A stretch of DNA of 64,000 bases from Nitrosopumilus zosterae (GTDB lineage Archaea; Thermoproteota; Nitrososphaeria; Nitrososphaerales; Nitrosopumilaceae): contig NZ_AP026695.1 of the NCBI RefSeq assembly GCF_025998175.1, forward strand, positions 124,001 to 188,000, in the 5' to 3' direction. This document shows, piece after piece, positions 4,038 to 11,477 of the stretch. The position numbers and the translations under genes are program-made. The notes under the pieces were generated by a model. It had not been told where the DNA came from. It saw nothing but the letters and a program-made list of their open reading frames with translations, and made no database searches. Numbering within the stretch: the stretch's first letter is position 1; the number at the start of each line of letters is the position of its first letter.

Positions 4038-4536
4038 CTATTCTGCTTTCGCAATTAAAGTTTGAACATTGTTTGGTCCACTTTTGTTTTCTTGAATAAC
4101 GAAAAATTATCATTGGCCATTTACAAACATCACACGGATTTTTTGTTGCCCTTAGTCTTGCTTTTTGTAGTAATGGAGATGATGCTTTACATCCCCCATA
4201 AAAGTTTGAACATCCCATGAAACGCTTTCTTGTAGTTTTAGATCTAATTACCATTAGTTCCCCCAACTTACATTGAGGACACTCTACAAGTCCATTTTTT
4301 GGAGAATTTGTTCCAAGAATTATGTATTTCTTCTCTTTTGATGACCATGAAAGATATCCATTTACATCCAAATACTGAATAATTTCTTTTTTGAATATAC
4401 TGGTCTTTGACTTTGTAGTTTTTGCTGTATGTCTCACTATTGTCTTTTTGACCTGAACAGTTTTGAGTGAACTCTTTGACTTCTTCAATGTTGGATTTAC
4501 TAAAACAATTTTTATAGGGACTTGGGTCAGTGACAT
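4021..4536 (-). CDS. Topoisomerase I-type C4 zinc-finger protein
   Basis: 171 aa from ATG 4536. The C-terminal half has two zinc-finger modules: CPQCKLGELMVIRS...FMGCSNFYGGC, then CDVCKWPMIIF...KQCSNFNC, as in C-terminal fingers of bacterial topoisomerase I but here without any topoisomerase domain. The N-terminal third is basic (K/S/T-rich). Likely single-stranded nucleic-acid binding (inference). The ATG overlaps the divergent thiolase start. A TATA-like element on this strand (4516-4507) predicts a leaderless start at TTG 4488, giving a 155-aa protein, so the shorter form may be the real one. Confidence 0.75.
   Translation of the reverse strand: MSLTQVPIKIVLVNPTLKKSKSSLKTVQVKKTIVRHTAKTTKSKTSIFKKEIIQYLDVNGYLSWSSKEKKYIILGTNSPKNGLVECPQCKLGELMVIRSKTTRKRFMGCSNFYGGCKASSPLLQKARLRATKNPCDVCKWPMIIFRYSRKQKWTKQCSNFNCESRIVKPSK
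4507..4517. promoter_or_regulatory. Candidate shared bidirectional TATA box
   Basis: AATTTTTATAG on the plus strand, CTATAAAAATT on the minus. Its centre is about 26 nt from GTG 4539 (thiolase, plus) and about 25 nt from TTG 4488 (zinc-finger gene, minus). One AT-rich element could serve both leaderless genes. Confidence 0.4.
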
Positions 4537-4538
4537 TT

Positions 4539-5693
4539 GTGGAAAAGGTTTGTGTTCTTGGCGCTGGTAGTACCAAATATGGAAAATTATCTGAAAGCAT
4601 AGCCGATATTACTACTCAGGCGTCAGTTGCAGCCATAGAAAGTGCAGGAATTTCTCCAAAAGACATCAAAGCATCATACATTTCAAACGTCTTTGGTGTT
4701 GCTGATAAACAGGTCCATATTGGTCCTGTCTTGATGAGCAGATTAGGAATTCCAGATAAACCATCATTAACAATAGAGTCTGCATGTGGGAGTGGCTCTG
4801 TATCTTTTAGAGAAGCATACGCCAATGTTGCGGCAGGATTTTATGATTGTCTGGTTGTAACTGGCGTTGAAAAAGTAACTCACACAGGGACTGAATGGAC
4901 AACAACTTACTTTGCATATTGTTCCGACTTTTTTTATGAAGGTCAAGCTGGTGCATCATTTCCTGGATTGTTTGCGTCTATGGCAAGGGCTTACTTGACA
5001 GAGTTTAATGCAACTGAAGAAGACTTTGCAGCAGTTGCAGTAAAGAATCACGACAATGGTTTCCTTAATCCTAAAGCTCACATGCAAAAAAAGATTACAA
5101 TCGATGATGTAATGAATTCTGCTGTAGTTGCAAGTCCTCTAAAACTTTATGATTGTTGTCCATTTTCTGATGGTGCAAGTTCTGTTATTCTTTGTTCTGA
5201 AAAGTTTGCAAAAGAGCACGGTGGTGATTACATTGAAGTAATTGGTTCTGGCAGGGGAGGTTCTCCTGCTGCATTGCAAGGACGTGAACATATGACAACA
5301 ATTCCTAGTACAAAAATTGCAGCAGCGGATGCATACAAAATGGCAGGAATTACTACAAAAGATATTGACTTTGCAGAAGTACATGATTGCTTTACAATTG
5401 CAGAAGTAGTAGACACTGAAGACTTGGGATTCTTTGAAAAAGGACAAGGCATTCAAGCTGTTCGTGAAGGTAGAACAAAATTAAATTCTGACATTTCAAT
5501 TAATCCATCAGGTGGTCTTAAATCAAAAGGACATCCAATCGGAGCAACAGGTATTGGACAAGTAGTAGAAGTATTTGATCAACTAACTGGAAAAGCTGGT
5601 GAAAGAACTGTTAAAGATGCAAAAATTGGTTTAACTCATAACTTTGGCGCAACTGGGGCAAGTTGTGCAGTTCACATATTCCAAAGTGTGTAA
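4539..5693 (+). CDS. Thiolase family protein (acetoacetyl-CoA thiolase type)
   Basis: 384 aa from GTG 4539; GTG 4530 is also in frame. The start was chosen from the TATA distance. Conserved sites of the archaeal thiolase group are visible: nucleophile Cys in ESACGSGS (Cys83), HDCFTIAE (His282) and GGLKSKGHPIGATG (His332). It is followed two bases later by a DUF35 zinc-ribbon/OB protein. In archaea such pairs form acyl-transfer complexes, and methanogens add HMG-CoA synthase. In ammonia-oxidising archaea a thiolase is required to split acetoacetyl-CoA in the 3HP/4HB cycle and to form it for mevalonate; either role fits. Confidence 0.88.
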   Translation: MEKVCVLGAGSTKYGKLSESIADITTQASVAAIESAGISPKDIKASYISNVFGVADKQVHIGPVLMSRLGIPDKPSLTIESACGSGSVSFREAYANVAAGFYDCLVVTGVEKVTHTGTEWTTTYFAYCSDFFYEGQAGASFPGLFASMARAYLTEFNATEEDFAAVAVKNHDNGFLNPKAHMQKKITIDDVMNSAVVASPLKLYDCCPFSDGASSVILCSEKFAKEHGGDYIEVIGSGRGGSPAALQGREHMTTIPSTKIAAADAYKMAGITTKDIDFAEVHDCFTIAEVVDTEDLGFFEKGQGIQAVREGRTKLNSDISINPSGGLKSKGHPIGATGIGQVVEVFDQLTGKAGERTVKDAKIGLTHNFGATGASCAVHIFQSV

Positions 5694-5694
5694 A

Positions 5695-6063
5695 ATGACT
5701 ATTGAAGAACAACTAATTGAATATGCAAAACAGGGTAAACTCTTGACTCATAAATGCACCAAATGCGGATATCTTCATTTATCTACTGCCTATTATTGCC
5801 TCAAATGCGGTAGTCAAGGGTTTGAAGATGTTATTTTAGACGGTGTAGGCTCAATTGCAACTTATACCATCATCACTGTTGCCCCTGCGGGCTTTGAAAA
5901 ATATACCCCGTATGCCTTTGTTGTACTTCAACTAGATAATACTGATCTGAGAATTTCTGGGTTTATGGCAGGAATTGCCACTCCTGACGATCTTCCGATT
6001 GGAACTAGAGCCCATATAACTGGTTTTGAAGATGGCTGTGGAATCATCATTAAAAAACAGTAA
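5695..6063 (+). CDS. DUF35 zinc-ribbon/OB-fold protein, thiolase partner
   Basis: 122 aa. The N-terminal rubredoxin-like zinc ribbon CTKCGYLHLSTAYYCLKCG (residues 20-38) precedes an OB-fold (VGSIATYTIITVAP...ISGFMAG...). The ATG follows the thiolase stop after a single base, so translation is probably coupled. DUF35 proteins bridge thiolase and partner enzymes and bind the CoA tail in the thiolase/HMG-CoA synthase complex. Here no HMG-CoA synthase is adjacent, so this is presumably a two-component arrangement or the third subunit is encoded elsewhere. Confidence 0.88.
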   Translation: MTIEEQLIEYAKQGKLLTHKCTKCGYLHLSTAYYCLKCGSQGFEDVILDGVGSIATYTIITVAPAGFEKYTPYAFVVLQLDNTDLRISGFMAGIATPDDLPIGTRAHITGFEDGCGIIIKKQ

Positions 6064-6133: not shown

Positions 6134-6295
6134 ATGTCTGTAGAAATAACTTGTGGTAAATGTGGAGAAAAGATCACAAATATGAAAATGCTAAAATCTC
6201 TAAAAGATGTTTTGAATCCAACAAATGGAAAATGCCCATCCTGTGGACAGAAACTTTCCACTTCAGAATTTTCACTTGATGTTCAAGAAAACTGA
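6134..6295 (+). CDS. Small zinc-ribbon protein
   Basis: 53 aa, beginning MSVEITCGKCGEKI, with two CxxC pairs (TCGKCG at residues 6-11, KCPSCGQ at 33-39): a minimal four-cysteine zinc ribbon. A TATA-like ATTCTTAATA (6101-6110) is centred 26 nt before the ATG. It lies just upstream of the ribonucleotide-reductase locus on the same strand. Function unknown; small zinc ribbons in archaea often act as RNA- or protein-binding adaptors. Confidence 0.75.
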   Translation: MSVEITCGKCGEKITNMKMLKSLKDVLNPTNGKCPSCGQKLSTSEFSLDVQEN

Positions 6296-6305
6296 TCACC
6301 AAAAA

Positions 6306-6326
6306 GATCATTTTTTAGATTTTTTC
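6306..6326. promoter_or_regulatory. Candidate RNR-locus operator, copy A
   Basis: GATCATTTTTTA followed after one base by ATTTTTT. The same arrangement (identical first 12 nt, then ATTTTTT) occurs at 8639-8659 upstream of nrdJ. It lies 134-154 nt before the regulator's ATG at 6460. Confidence 0.4.
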
Positions 6327-6392
6327 AAAACGCTAGTGGTTATTAAAAAATTTCCTTGGCAAATTGGAAAACTGATCCAATTTGATCCCAAA

Positions 6393-6403
6393 CTGATCAA
6401 AAA
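6393..6403. promoter_or_regulatory. Candidate RNR-locus operator half, CTGATCAAAAA
   Basis: Exact 11-nt match, in inverted orientation, to 8655-8665 upstream of nrdJ. The core TGATCA is palindromic. Further TGATC/GATCA words surround it (6292, 6306, 6373, 6384, 6415). Confidence 0.4.
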
Positions 6404-6459
6404 TGTTCAAAAATGATCTAGTCACAAGTCTTATTTACTCCTTAGTCAAGAAAAAAAAC

Positions 6460-8613
6460 ATGAAAATGAGTGACGAGGATCTAGAATTAGATCTGGATGC
6501 TGATCTAGATGATGATGACGATTTAGAGTTAGACTCTGATTCATCACCCAAACGAAGTGGTATTTTACAATCTACATCAAAACGTGTAAGAATGATTTTC
6601 TCTGTTATGGCAAGTCCAAACAGAATAGATATCCTTAGAATCTTAAATTCTAAAGGTCCTTTGACTTATTCTGAATTAAAATCCCTTGCAGGATTCAAGT
6701 CAAAAAAAGAAAGTGGCAAATTTGCATACCACTTGAGAAAATTACTTAGACAATCCCTTGTTGCACTTAACAAATCTGAAAGACGATACACCATTACAAA
6801 TCTTGGAAAGCTAGTTTTGAGTTTGGCAAGACAAATTGAAGAAAGATCAATTATTGAAAGTGGAAAAATGTACGTTAGAACATCTCATCAATCAATTGAG
6901 GAATTCAATTCACATAAAATTATTCAATCTCTGGTTCGTGAAGGAAGTCTTCCATTAGAACTTGCGCAAAAAATTACTGAAGAAGTCGAAAATAGAATTT
7001 ACAAATACCAGACCACCTATCTGACTGGCTCACTAATCAGAGAAATGGTGAACTCTGTCCTTCTAGAGCATGGTCATGAGGAATATAGGAATAAACTTGC
7101 ACGCCTAGGCCTTCCTGTTTATGACGTTCAGGAGATGATTTCCAATCTAGACAATGTAGATAATGGCGCTGAAGGTCTTCTCTTTAACACAGGACAGAGG
7201 GTATTTGCTGAACATCTATTAACTAACATCTTACCAAAAGATGTGGCAGACTCACATCTTTCTGGAGACTTGCATATTACTAATCCTGGAATTTGGTCTA
7301 TGATTCCTGATACCATATTTGTTAATATCAAGGAATTAATCGAAGATGGAATCAATCTTGGTGGAAAATATCTTGATGTATCTAGAATTCCTGCATCAAA
7401 ACAACTTGATGACATTGCAAGTTCACTATCAATTGTAATTGCACTCTTGTCAAAGGAGGCTTCGCAAGAAGTTGTAATTGATGGATTAGTGCAATTATTT
7501 ACAAAATATTCAAAGTCCATTCCAGAACTTGAACAAAAACTCACTGATGCGTTTGCAACTGCATCTACAACTGCAAAATATAACAAAACAAGTACAAAGG
7601 TATCAATTAGATTACAATTAGGAACTGATACAAAGATAATTAATTCAATTATTAATGCATACAAGAATTACACAAAGATTACTCCAATTCCAAAAATTGG
7701 TTTGATAATAGATGTTGACAAAGGAAAAATTACTGATATTTCAGAATCAATAGCTGAAATAATCTCTGTTGGCGGACACGTAATGTTTGCTAAAGGTCAA
7801 ACTTCTAGTTCCGGCGTTACAAATGGATCTACAAAAACCACAGCTCCGCTTTCAATAAACTTGGAATCTGTTTCAATTAATCTTCCAAGACTTGCATTTG
7901 AATCAAACAAAGATGAAACTTACTTTAGAGCAAGACTTGCATTACTAATGAAACCGGCATTATCATCTATGGCATTAAGAAAGAAAGAGATTTCAGATCT
8001 TACTAGACGAGGACTAAATCCAATTCTTGCCAAGAACACACAATATATGCAACGTAGTTCTGTTTCACTTGTTGTAAATTTGGTAGGGCTCAAAGAATCT
8101 GTCTTTAACATACTTGGATTCCAAGACAATAAAGAAGGACGCGATATTCTTCATAAGGTAATTCAGACAGCAGTTGATGTTGGAGCCAAAAAAGGTAAAG
8201 AATTAGGTGATACGGTTGCAATATGTATGACTGAAACTGAGGCATCTGCTCGTTTTGCTACTCTGGATGGCGAAAAATATGGCAAAAACTCTGCCTTAAA
8301 TTCAATGGAGGGTGACTCTTATTCACAGGGAATAGTAATTCAAGCCTCTGAAATTGCTAGTTTTACTAACAAAAGTGACCCTATAGTAGAATCAAACAAG
8401 CTCTCAAAAATCCTCACTGGAGGATTACTAGTCACATTACAAATTGACAAGAATGCAAAGGTAAACGAAATCAAAAAATCACTTGAAAAAGCATCAGAAC
8501 TTACGACTTCTTTCAAGCCTGTGCGAAAAATTGCAATTTGTGGTGAGTGTGGATTTAAGGATGAACCCTTTGAGGACAAATGTCCAAAGTGCAAGTCCCC
8601 ATACGTTGTCTGA
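6460..8613 (+). CDS. Winged-helix / ATP-cone / NrdD-like fusion protein, candidate regulator of ribonucleotide reductase
   Basis: 717 aa from ATG 6460, with TATA-like CTTATTTACT (6430-6439) 26 nt upstream. Order: acidic N-tail (residues 4-29); winged helix, ArsR-like (about 38-125; IFSVMASPNRIDILRIL); ATP-cone (about 138-225), the nucleotide-sensing domain of ribonucleotide reductases; a long region starting FAEHLLTNILPKDVADSHLSG (249-269) that resembles the anaerobic reductase NrdD core; and a C-terminal zinc ribbon CGECG...CPKC (about 694-712), like NrdD's zinc site. I find no glycyl-radical RVxGY-type motif. It is probably a nucleotide-responsive transcription factor built from a dead reductase scaffold (inference). 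nrdJ follows on the same strand after 212 bp. Confidence 0.75.
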   Translation: MKMSDEDLELDLDADLDDDDDLELDSDSSPKRSGILQSTSKRVRMIFSVMASPNRIDILRILNSKGPLTYSELKSLAGFKSKKESGKFAYHLRKLLRQSLVALNKSERRYTITNLGKLVLSLARQIEERSIIESGKMYVRTSHQSIEEFNSHKIIQSLVREGSLPLELAQKITEEVENRIYKYQTTYLTGSLIREMVNSVLLEHGHEEYRNKLARLGLPVYDVQEMISNLDNVDNGAEGLLFNTGQRVFAEHLLTNILPKDVADSHLSGDLHITNPGIWSMIPDTIFVNIKELIEDGINLGGKYLDVSRIPASKQLDDIASSLSIVIALLSKEASQEVVIDGLVQLFTKYSKSIPELEQKLTDAFATASTTAKYNKTSTKVSIRLQLGTDTKIINSIINAYKNYTKITPIPKIGLIIDVDKGKITDISESIAEIISVGGHVMFAKGQTSSSGVTNGSTKTTAPLSINLESVSINLPRLAFESNKDETYFRARLALLMKPALSSMALRKKEISDLTRRGLNPILAKNTQYMQRSSVSLVVNLVGLKESVFNILGFQDNKEGRDILHKVIQTAVDVGAKKGKELGDTVAICMTETEASARFATLDGEKYGKNSALNSMEGDSYSQGIVIQASEIASFTNKSDPIVESNKLSKILTGGLLVTLQIDKNAKVNEIKKSLEKASELTTSFKPVRKIAICGECGFKDEPFEDKCPKCKSPYVV

Positions 8614-8638: not shown

Positions 8639-8665
8639 GATCATTTTTTAAAATTTTTTGATCAG
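8639..8665. promoter_or_regulatory. Candidate RNR-locus operator upstream of nrdJ
   Basis: GATCATTTTTTA (8639-8650), then ATTTTTT, then TTTTTGATCAG (8655-8665). Both words recur upstream of the ATP-cone/winged-helix gene (6306-6326 and, inverted, 6393-6403). The flanking GATCA/TGATC form an inverted pair. Confidence 0.45.
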
Positions 8666-8808
8666 AATCAGATAAGCGATCTTCATCATTACTATCAAAG
8701 TTATGCCAGTATGAAATTCATAGTAGCGGTGTTAAAAAAATTGACTCATTAACGGGACAAGATCAAAACTTTTCGAGCACATAAGTTATATCCACATTGG
8801 TTCTAAGC

Positions 8809-8826
8809 ATGGAGGGGAGATTATAA
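8809..8826 (+). other. Leader mini-ORF overlapping the nrdJ start
   Basis: ATG GAG GGG AGA TTA TAA encodes MEGRL. Its stop overlaps the nrdJ ATG (TAATG). TATA-like ATAAGTTATA (8781-8790) is centred about 24-26 nt upstream of this ATG, so the transcript may start leaderless here. The mini-ORF itself contains the purine-rich GGAGGGGA (8811-8818), which doubles as a Shine-Dalgarno sequence for nrdJ. Confidence 0.4.
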
Positions 8827-11477
8827 TGGACAATTCACAAATTGAAAATACGATCAATGAGATCCGTAAGCGCAGTGGCGCAGTCACGGCTTTCAATCAA
8901 AATAAAATTTCAAATGCCATATTTCGGGCATTGGCCGCCACCTCTAAAGCCGATCGTGGTCTGGCCGATCAACTAGCAGAGAATGTAGTTAACAAACTAG
9001 TTGAACAAGGATTTACAAGTACTAGAACACCGACTGTTGAAGATATTCAGGATATTGTAGAATCAACTCTAATTGATAGCGGAAATAGCGATATTGCAAA
9101 AGCCTACATTGTTTACAGACATGAGAGAAGAAAACTAAGGGAAGAGAAAATGAAGGTCTTGAATCTGAAGGCTCTTGACCCAGTTTCCAAAAAGTTTGAT
9201 CTGAATTGTCTTAGAGTCTTGGCATCAAGATATCTTTTCCGAAATTCTAAAAACGAGATCATTGAATCTCCAACTCAAATGTTTGAGCGAGTAGCAATTC
9301 TGGTAGGAATTGGAGACATTCTATATGATTCACAAATCTTTGACAAATCGGGAAATATCAAACAAGATGTAGAAGAAGCAAAATCATATCTTGAAAAACT
9401 AGATGCCTTTGATTATAAATTCAAAGTAGGAGATTATTTCTTCAACAAATGGCATTTCAGATCCTTAATCAATCACTACGTGAGTCTTGCAAACAAAGGT
9501 CAAATGAAGATAAGCTTCAAAGATCTTTTGACATTACTTGCAGCAAAGAAACTAGATAATTATGCAGACAAAATCACAGAATACTTTGAACTAATGACTG
9601 CACAAGACTTTCTACCAAATTCACCAACCATGATGAATGCGGGTGGAAGATTGGGACAATTATCTGCATGCTTTGTACTTGGAATGGAAGATGGAATGGA
9701 ACAAATCATGAAATCTACCTCTGATGCAGCATTAATCTTCAAGTCTGGTGGTGGTGTTGGAATTAACTATTCTGATCTTCGTGAAGAAGGTGATATTGTA
9801 GCATCCACTTCAGGTGTTGCGTCAGGACCTGTATCTTTCATGAATATCATCAATACCGTCACTGAAGTAGTCAAACAAGGAGGAAAAAGGCGCGGTGCAA
9901 ACATGGGTATTATTGAAGCATGGCATCCTGATGTTGAAAAATTCATCACAAACAAAACAGAACCAGGAGTTTTAGAGAACTTTAACGTAAGCGTTGGTAT
10001 CTGGGAGGACTTTTGGCATGCCTTGGTAAATACTTCTGATGGTAACTATATCTTACGTAGCCCACGTGATAAAAAACCAGTTAAAGAAATCAATGCGCAT
10101 CAACTAATTGATCTGATTGCACTTTCTGCATGGAAGAGCGCAGAACCTGGATTGATCTTCTTTGATCAAATTAACAAATACAACGTATTTGCAAAAGCAA
10201 GAAAAGCACCACTTAGAGCAACAAATCCATGTGGTGAACAAAGTCTTTATCCATACGAATCCTGTAATCTAGGTTCTATCAACTTGGTAAATCTTGTAAA
10301 GAGACAAGCAGATGGAACTTATGAATTTGATTGGCAAAGATATGAAGAAACAATCAGAAAGACAACAAGATTCTTGGATAACATCATTGATGTCAATACA
10401 TATCCGGTACCAGAAATTAATGTAGCATCAAAAGAGTCTAGACGTATTGGACTTGGAGTGATGGGTGTAGCTGATCTATTGTACAAGCTAAAAATCCCAT
10501 ACAATTCTCAAGAAGGATATGAACTACAATCAAAACTATCTGAAGCTCTGTCATACTATTCAATGGAAGAAAGTGTTGCACTTGCTAAATCTCGTGGTGA
10601 GTTCCCACTATGTTCTAAAACAGAATATCCAGAAGGAAAGATTCCTATCTCAGGATACTATGAGAGACCAAAAGAATCTCATTCTTGTGATTGGGATCCA
10701 CTAATTGATAAAATCAAAAAGCATGGTATCAGAAATGTCTTGACTACTACGGTAGCTCCAACTGGCACACTCTCTATGATTGCAGATTGTTCAAATGGAA
10801 TGGAACCTGCATTTGCTCTTGTATTTGAGAAGAGAGTAACTGTTGGAAGATTCTTCTATACCAATAAGATAGTTGAAGAAGCACTAAAAGAACATGATCT
10901 TTACAATGATGAAATCCTTGAAAAGATTGCAGACAATTACGGTTCATTGAAAGGAATACCTGAAATTCCACAATGGATGCAGGATGTCTATGTTACAGCA
11001 ATGGATATTCATTGGGCTGATCATCTTATGGCTCAAGGTGTATGGCAAGACTGGATTGGAAATGCAATTGCAAAAACAATCAACATGCCATATGACGTAA
11101 CTGCCGAAGACGTAAAATGTGCATATCTTCTAGCACATGAACTTGGACTAAAAGGAATGACAGTTTATCGTGATGGTTCTAGACACAAACAAGTTCTTCA
11201 TATGACTAGTGAAAATGCTCAGAAGATATTTGATGTACCACCAAGTGATTACATGACTGCTTTTGTGAAAGAAAACATCACAAATCCATACATCAAGTCT
11301 CAAGTAAATGCAGCACTTGCATTAAAAGTTCATGACGAAGAAATCAAGATTGAACCTCAAAAACAAGAAGAGATTTCAGAAGATCGTCTATGTCCGACAT
11401 GCAAAAACAATCTGGTCTTCGTAGAGGGTTGTAGCATTTGCATTGAATGCGGATACAGTGGTTGTACTTCTGGATAA
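8826..11477 (+). CDS. nrdJ: Adenosylcobalamin-dependent ribonucleotide reductase (class II)
   Basis: 883 aa. It makes deoxyribonucleotides using a B12-derived radical. An N-terminal ATP-cone (about residues 15-105; overall activity control) precedes the ten-stranded barrel. Active-site residues: Cys282 (LSACFVLG), Asn467/Cys469/Glu471 (NPCGE). The C-terminal tail CPTCKNNLVF...CSICIECGYSGC provides redox-shuttle or zinc cysteines. Class II enzymes need neither oxygen nor a separate radical subunit, and the cobalamin operon at 42.6-46.8 kb supplies the cofactor. A strong GGAGGGGA ribosome-binding site precedes the ATG, unusual in this mostly leaderless genome. Confidence 0.95.
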   Translation: MDNSQIENTINEIRKRSGAVTAFNQNKISNAIFRALAATSKADRGLADQLAENVVNKLVEQGFTSTRTPTVEDIQDIVESTLIDSGNSDIAKAYIVYRHERRKLREEKMKVLNLKALDPVSKKFDLNCLRVLASRYLFRNSKNEIIESPTQMFERVAILVGIGDILYDSQIFDKSGNIKQDVEEAKSYLEKLDAFDYKFKVGDYFFNKWHFRSLINHYVSLANKGQMKISFKDLLTLLAAKKLDNYADKITEYFELMTAQDFLPNSPTMMNAGGRLGQLSACFVLGMEDGMEQIMKSTSDAALIFKSGGGVGINYSDLREEGDIVASTSGVASGPVSFMNIINTVTEVVKQGGKRRGANMGIIEAWHPDVEKFITNKTEPGVLENFNVSVGIWEDFWHALVNTSDGNYILRSPRDKKPVKEINAHQLIDLIALSAWKSAEPGLIFFDQINKYNVFAKARKAPLRATNPCGEQSLYPYESCNLGSINLVNLVKRQADGTYEFDWQRYEETIRKTTRFLDNIIDVNTYPVPEINVASKESRRIGLGVMGVADLLYKLKIPYNSQEGYELQSKLSEALSYYSMEESVALAKSRGEFPLCSKTEYPEGKIPISGYYERPKESHSCDWDPLIDKIKKHGIRNVLTTTVAPTGTLSMIADCSNGMEPAFALVFEKRVTVGRFFYTNKIVEEALKEHDLYNDEILEKIADNYGSLKGIPEIPQWMQDVYVTAMDIHWADHLMAQGVWQDWIGNAIAKTINMPYDVTAEDVKCAYLLAHELGLKGMTVYRDGSRHKQVLHMTSENAQKIFDVPPSDYMTAFVKENITNPYIKSQVNAALALKVHDEEIKIEPQKQEEISEDRLCPTCKNNLVFVEGCSICIECGYSGCTSG

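Follow-up and report, generated by a model that had tools for sequence, protein, structure and literature searches.

Here, we describe a 717-residue protein of the archaeon Nitrosopumilus zosterae that is assembled from the parts of an anaerobic (class III) ribonucleotide reductase (RNR), has lost the catalytic residues of that enzyme, and carries a winged helix at its N-terminus. Throughout the order to which this organism belongs, its gene is closely linked to an RNR gene. We think it probable that the protein descends from a class III RNR and now acts as a transcription factor on RNR genes; DNA binding, the ligand, the target and the sign of regulation are all inferred. The gene lies in a window of 64,000 nucleotides, by which we mean the whole stretch of DNA analysed. 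The source genome (1.775 Mb, 99.95% complete) encodes an archaeal AmoA (E 4e-115), which marks the organism as an ammonia-oxidising archaeon.

Domain layout and homology to NrdD

The features of the regulator gene and its neighbour are as follows (window coordinates).

6428–6437, + strand: TATA-like promoter element GTCTTATTTA, kept in the genus
6460–8613, + strand: regulator gene; the 717-aa product runs from an acidic tail through winged helix, ATP-cone and dead NrdD barrel to a zinc ribbon (Pfam, profile-profile comparison, AlphaFold model, structure comparison)
6460–6576, + strand: acidic low-complexity N-terminal tail, residues 1–39 (alignment; disordered in the model, pLDDT ~30)
6577–6795, + strand: winged-helix domain, residues 40–112 (Pfam, conservation, model; 23 invariant columns across the order)
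6865–7125, + strand: ATP-cone, residues 136–222 (Pfam, profile-profile comparison, conservation, model)
7153–8529, + strand: NrdD-type barrel, residues 232–690, catalytically dead (profile-profile comparison, structure comparison, residue check, conservation)
7312–7314, + strand: Thr285, at the position of NrdD Cys79 in T4 numbering (anchored alignment)
8530–8601, + strand: C-terminal zinc ribbon, Cys 694, 697, 708 and 711 (alignment)
8826–11477, + strand: nrdJ, encoding a class II RNR that carries an ATP-cone of its own; the presumed target (profile matches)

A longer reading frame is present, with a start at 6403. This start was rejected, as it lies upstream of the genus-conserved TATA-like sequence CTTATTTA (~6430–6437). 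That sequence sits just 5′ of the ATG at 6460, by about 25 bases, making this ATG the better start and implying that the predicted mRNA is near-leaderless. The length of the N-terminal tail differs among members of the genus.

Three parts of the protein exceed Pfam cut-offs: a DUF7347/HTH_20 winged helix at residues 46–120 (PF24038, 40.8 bits against a cut-off of 27.6; PF12840, 32.9 against 27), an ATP-cone at residues 137–209 (PF03477, E 5e-8), and NRDD at residues 458–713 plus an N-terminal piece (E 4.5e-26). NCBIfam models for NrdD match far below their cut-offs (88 versus 326 bits for the NrdD equivalog), and the ArsR metal-sensor model NF033788 is not met (23.6 bits, cut-off 55). When an alignment of 25 regulator orthologues was compared with an alignment of 12 archaeal NrdDs, the two aligned from the ATP-cone through the zinc ribbon (probability 99.9, E 3e-37).

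Structural comparison gives the same picture. NrdDs are the best matches of an AlphaFold model of the regulator (pLDDT 79.6, pTM 0.71; Foldseek E 1.6e-20), and solved NrdDs superimpose with Z ~30 over 433–443 residues at 2.8–3.1 Å. Class I/II large subunits (Z 18–20) and other glycyl radical enzymes (Z 18) score lower. Chance similarity of the barrel to NrdD can be rejected on the profile E-value and the Z-score. A second model, of the winged helix plus ATP-cone (pLDDT 85.1), resembles winged-helix regulators, led by YodB (Z 13.2) and including several of the MarR, ArsR and HxlR types (Z 11–13), as well as the ATP-cones of NrdA (5im3; Z 12.6, 1.4 Å over 83 residues), NrdD (9d3x; Z 12.0) and NrdR (7p37; Z 11.9). 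A sequence-only reading of this DNA had proposed a winged helix, an ATP-cone, an NrdD-like core and a zinc ribbon, encoded directly upstream of a class II RNR, and had left the fold of the core to structure prediction. Each element of this layout is borne out by Pfam, profile-profile comparison and the models, the core does have the NrdD fold, and nrdJ follows on the same strand after a gap of 212 bp.

The domains have not been conserved equally. Across the order, mean pairwise identity is 75% for the winged helix and 66% for the ATP-cone versus 34% for the barrel, which suggests that selection has mainly held the DNA-binding and sensing domains. The barrel drifts in sequence, yet it is present in every member of the order sampled.

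Loss of catalytic residues and probable descent from archaeal NrdD

To follow the active site, 34 NrdDs, 24 regulators from the order and 99 regulators from other archaeal groups were aligned with MAFFT, with T4 NrdD as the anchor. The residues lost relative to NrdD are C79, C290 and G580. Cysteine occupies the C79 position in 34/34 NrdDs and in none of the 123 regulators. At the C290 position, cysteine is found in all 34 NrdDs, in 0/24 regulators of the order and in 23/99 outside it. The glycyl-radical Gly, likewise present in 34/34 NrdDs, is found in 0/24 regulators of the order, the loop being missing from all 24; a Gly is aligned in 20 of the 99 regulators outside the order, within decayed loops where the alignment is unsure. 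No regulator (0/123) has all three catalytic residues together. The glycyl-radical loop RVxGY was not found after the zinc ribbon of our regulator, which ends right after the ribbon. The four zinc cysteines are kept in 24/24 order regulators and in 93–94 of the 99 others; C694, C697, C708 and C711 are invariant in the order's 25-row alignment. Relics outside the order include TGCRF, with the finger-loop cysteine, and SRVSAKHLPAP where NrdD has SRVVGYLRPV. Because relics of C290 and the Gly persist only outside the order, decay is graded across the family. Some shorter family members (L132, L133 and L135; 550–617 aa) have lost the zinc ribbon too.

Could the protein nevertheless be an unusual yet active ribonucleotide reductase? 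Retention of the full barrel and zinc ribbon, together with the survival outside the order of Cys at C290 or of a Gly near the radical position in a minority of sequences, would be the grounds for thinking so. Members of the order, however, have none of the three catalytic residues and their C-terminal loop is deleted. Moreover, no second RNR barrel or other NrdD-like gene was found in the source genome, in which the adjacent nrdJ encodes the sole RNR large subunit, yet its class II RNR is complete. We regard an active enzyme as scarcely tenable, and reject it on the catalytic residues.

A maximum-likelihood tree was built from 64 sequences spanning ATP-cone and barrel. All 39 regulators in it form one clade (100/100), and its sister is a six-member clade of archaeal NrdDs (97/83). 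The root of this tree depends on the long T4 branch. Two of the sister-clade NrdDs (L118n and L125n) are encoded directly 3′ of the regulator in their own genomes. The simplest reading of this pattern, inferred from sequence comparison, is a tandem duplication of nrdD followed by capture of a winged helix. The suggestion of the sequence-only reading that the protein is a dead anaerobic reductase without a glycyl-radical motif is supported, by full-length NrdD homology, by the loss of C79, C290 and G580, and by a regulator clade that stands beside archaeal NrdDs.

Gene order, distribution and candidate operators

The regulator gene is present in 58/61 near-relative genomes of the order. Two of the three exceptions are incomplete genomes (63% and 85%). 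The remaining one, G042, has a completeness of 99%, and another genome of its family does carry the gene. Across the phylum, a winged helix plus ATP-cone profile (E <= 1e-8) matches in 202/300 sampled genomes. ATP-cones alone may account for the weakest of these; among the matches listed, most have E 1e-40 or better. Matches in Njord- and Jordarchaeia MAGs (L139, L215) each rest on a single contig, that of L139 being a possible mis-binning. Open frames of ~1000–2800 aa that contain partial or split nrdD matches occur in several of the phylum's genomes (G075:C7, G092:C35, G099:C1, G068:C62 and others), which is suggestive of NrdD interrupted by inteins or large insertions.

An NrdR concealed elsewhere in the source genome was rejected, there being no match to TIGR00244 in it; nor was NrdR found in the order. 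It occurs in 22 of the 300 phylum genomes, all of one family, where it lies near nrdD. Genomes of this family, f18 (e.g. G345:C52:42258-44782), have the regulator elsewhere, and hence two candidate RNR regulators per cell.

Linkage between the regulator and RNR is strong in the order and partial outside it. In all 20 loci of the order outside the genus-like set (L031–L050), an RNR gene lies 97–834 bp 3′ of the regulator on the same strand. Some of these RNRs are only ~30% identical to the window's NrdJ, so several RNR types occupy the slot. At the 99 loci outside the order, nrdD follows the regulator in 13 and an nrdJ-like gene in 4; most of the 99 show no RNR in the flank examined, some flanks being short. 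Beyond the RNR, many loci inside and outside the order have a convergent pyrB-pyrI. The common order regulator/RNR/pyrB-pyrI suggests that nrdD and nrdJ were swapped in the slot while the regulator remained.

The pyrB gene calls for a further comment. Among loci L118–L217 (e.g. L120:3486-4403), many archaea have pyrB (and pyrI) facing the regulator in convergent orientation, whether or not an RNR gene lies between. At 45/99 loci outside the order pyrB is within 3 kb, and often the RNR slot is vacant, so that pyrB adjoins the regulator directly. It is conceivable on this basis that the protein is a wider nucleotide-responsive regulator, of pyrimidine synthesis or replication for instance, and that its adjacency to RNR is inherited rather than functional. 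Being convergent, however, pyrB shares no promoter with the regulator, and the same-strand downstream neighbour is an RNR in every one of the 20 order loci; two RNR classes also share the one slot. We consider this wider scope quite improbable, though gene order inherited from ancestors may explain some of the linkage.

Upstream of the regulator (window 4530–6063, + strand) is a pair of genes for a thiolase and a DUF35-like zinc/OB protein. This pair also stands ahead of the regulator in order lineages L031–L033 and L039 and in the distant L130, which suggests a very old gene order. Directly 5′ of the regulator, at window 6134–6295 (+ strand), is a 53-aa ORF with a two-CxxC zinc ribbon (MSVEITCGKCGEK...CPSCGQKLSTSEFSL), kept across the genus and in L029.

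The intergenic regions on either side of the regulator contain GATC-rich repeats, picked out by GATC counts.

6294–6418, no strand: candidate operator 5′ of the regulator, with GATC at 6294, 6306, 6374, 6384, 6395 and 6415
8639–8681, no strand: candidate operator between the regulator and nrdJ, with GATC at 8639, 8660 and 8678

In the window as a whole, GATC is rarer than expected (0.76 of expectation). The two flanking regions nonetheless have the highest and second-highest GATC densities among the window's 35 intergenic regions, with 10/35 intergenic GATCs within 551/10,475 bp. Over 26 related loci, counts exceed those of dinucleotide shuffles both upstream (81 vs 15) and downstream (92 vs 27), with the caveat that the species are related and the loci not independent. 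When 8-mers were compared between the two regions, the genus alone showed recurring words, all of GATC type; within single genomes, the words that the two regions most often share are TGATCAAA, GATCAAAA and AAATGATC. Shared 8-mers gave no operator common to different families, and the GATC motif was not found in other families whose winged helix is near-identical, so that GATC may not be the operator. By pattern search, the source genome has 57 triple-GATC clusters, 4 of them at the regulator locus (one coding). With tighter spacing, the locus accounts for 3/17 clusters in G007, 1/18 in G036 and none in G006. The GATC repeats are at most a tentative operator and a weak lead.

Other repeats were encountered along the way. 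A dense GATC cluster, GATCGATCAATTCTGTTAACAATTTAGTGAGATCAATTGATC (G000:C1:1505816-1505893), is conserved with almost no change in G006, G007 and G036 and to some extent in G105, and 29-bp head-to-tail repeats, GATCTATTGAATTGAAAATAATACAACAT, occupy G000:C1:1724707-1724913. Outside the window's family, in L031–L033 and L049, the regulator's own promoter bears a conserved inverted AAAG-CTTT element, TTTACAAAGNTACTTTAA; inspection by eye of these four loci did not reveal it 5′ of nrdJ.

A proposed regulatory role

How might such a protein have arisen, and how would it act? We propose that duplication of an archaeal nrdD, probably in tandem, gave rise to two copies, one of which acquired an N-terminal ArsR/DUF7347-like winged helix, lost its active-site cysteines and later its glycyl-radical loop. 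The winged helix would contact DNA, and the ATP-cone would sense adenine nucleotide or dNTP levels. The dimeric barrel most likely carries two winged helices, and its old effector and dimer surfaces may perhaps also sense nucleotides. The nucleotide state of the cone would set the oligomer, and thereby affinity for DNA at RNR promoters and the regulator's own. The target would be transcription of the adjoining RNR gene and probably of the regulator itself, most likely with repression at high dATP and release when ATP dominates. Going further, the barrel, through its specificity site and dimer interface, could still sense individual dNTPs and relay this to the winged helix, such that the whole dNTP pool is read and nrdD and nrdJ could be swapped with the switch unchanged; this we hold to be possible but doubtful.

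Nucleotide binding by the cone is plausible but not assured. NrdR contacts nucleotides through V48, K50, E56 and K62 (PMC12176259). As read from the sequence, V139, E147 and K153 of the regulator correspond to V48, E56 and K62. The inner-site, ATP-contacting K50 is replaced by Thr141, preceded by an invariant Arg140, and the regulator's cone may therefore bind nucleotides differently.

It is also possible, albeit unlikely, that the pseudoenzyme controls NrdJ through protein-protein contact, for example in cone-to-cone oligomers, with the winged helix serving as an interaction module or playing a minor part. ATP-cones in RNRs mediate inhibitory oligomers, NrdJ here bears its own cone, and the barrel dimerises in true NrdDs. 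On the other hand, no part of the protein is better conserved than the winged helix, which matches DNA-binding regulators and has a basic, near-invariant recognition helix, SKKESGKFAYHLRKL; and the placement of one regulator before either nrdD or nrdJ fits control at the DNA level better than contact with a specific enzyme. A role in transcription remains our preferred reading. The repurposing as a regulator that the sequence-only reading envisaged gains support from the constraint on winged helix and ATP-cone, the 20/20 linkage, the nrdD/nrdJ swap and the lack of NrdR, but the role itself is not proven.

The protein belongs neither with NrdD, whose catalytic residues it lacks, nor with NrdR, whose N-terminal zinc ribbon (TIGR00244) it lacks. 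With NrdD (PF13597; T4 1h78, Prevotella copri 8p2s, S. thermophilus 9d3x) it shares an ATP-cone, a 10-stranded barrel and a zinc ribbon in the same order; only the regulator has an N-terminal winged helix, lacks C79, C290 and the glycyl radical, and ends just past the ribbon. From the ArsR/DUF7347 regulators (PF24038, PF12840; YodB 5hs8, the Pyrococcus homologue 1ub9), whose winged-helix fold it has, it differs in being fused to an ATP-cone and NrdD barrel and in having no metal-sensor signature. NrdR is likewise an ATP-cone regulator tied to RNR genes, with a zinc ribbon and a supposedly similar job, and represses when dATP is plentiful. Unlike NrdR, which has ~150 aa and binds DNA through its N-terminal zinc ribbon, the 717-aa regulator has a winged helix, a dead barrel and a C-terminal, NrdD-derived ribbon. 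Of the parallel to NrdR drawn earlier, the separate origin stands, given the different DNA-binding domain and the descent from NrdD; that the two would function alike remains conditional.

We found no published description of this family in the open-access literature. New here are its spread across the phylum, its single clade, and the exchange of nrdD and nrdJ under a retained regulator. Many of its proteins score as NrdD and risk being miscounted as anaerobic RNRs in aerobes. The family would be a case in which an enzyme has come to regulate transcription in the pathway it once served, and intermediates survive in which C290 is retained or the glycyl loop is decayed. NrdR is reported to be uncommon among archaea (PMC9110341, PMC12176259), which leaves transcript-level control of dNTP supply in most of them a question; the family described here is a direct candidate for that role in ammonia oxidisers and Bathyarchaeia.
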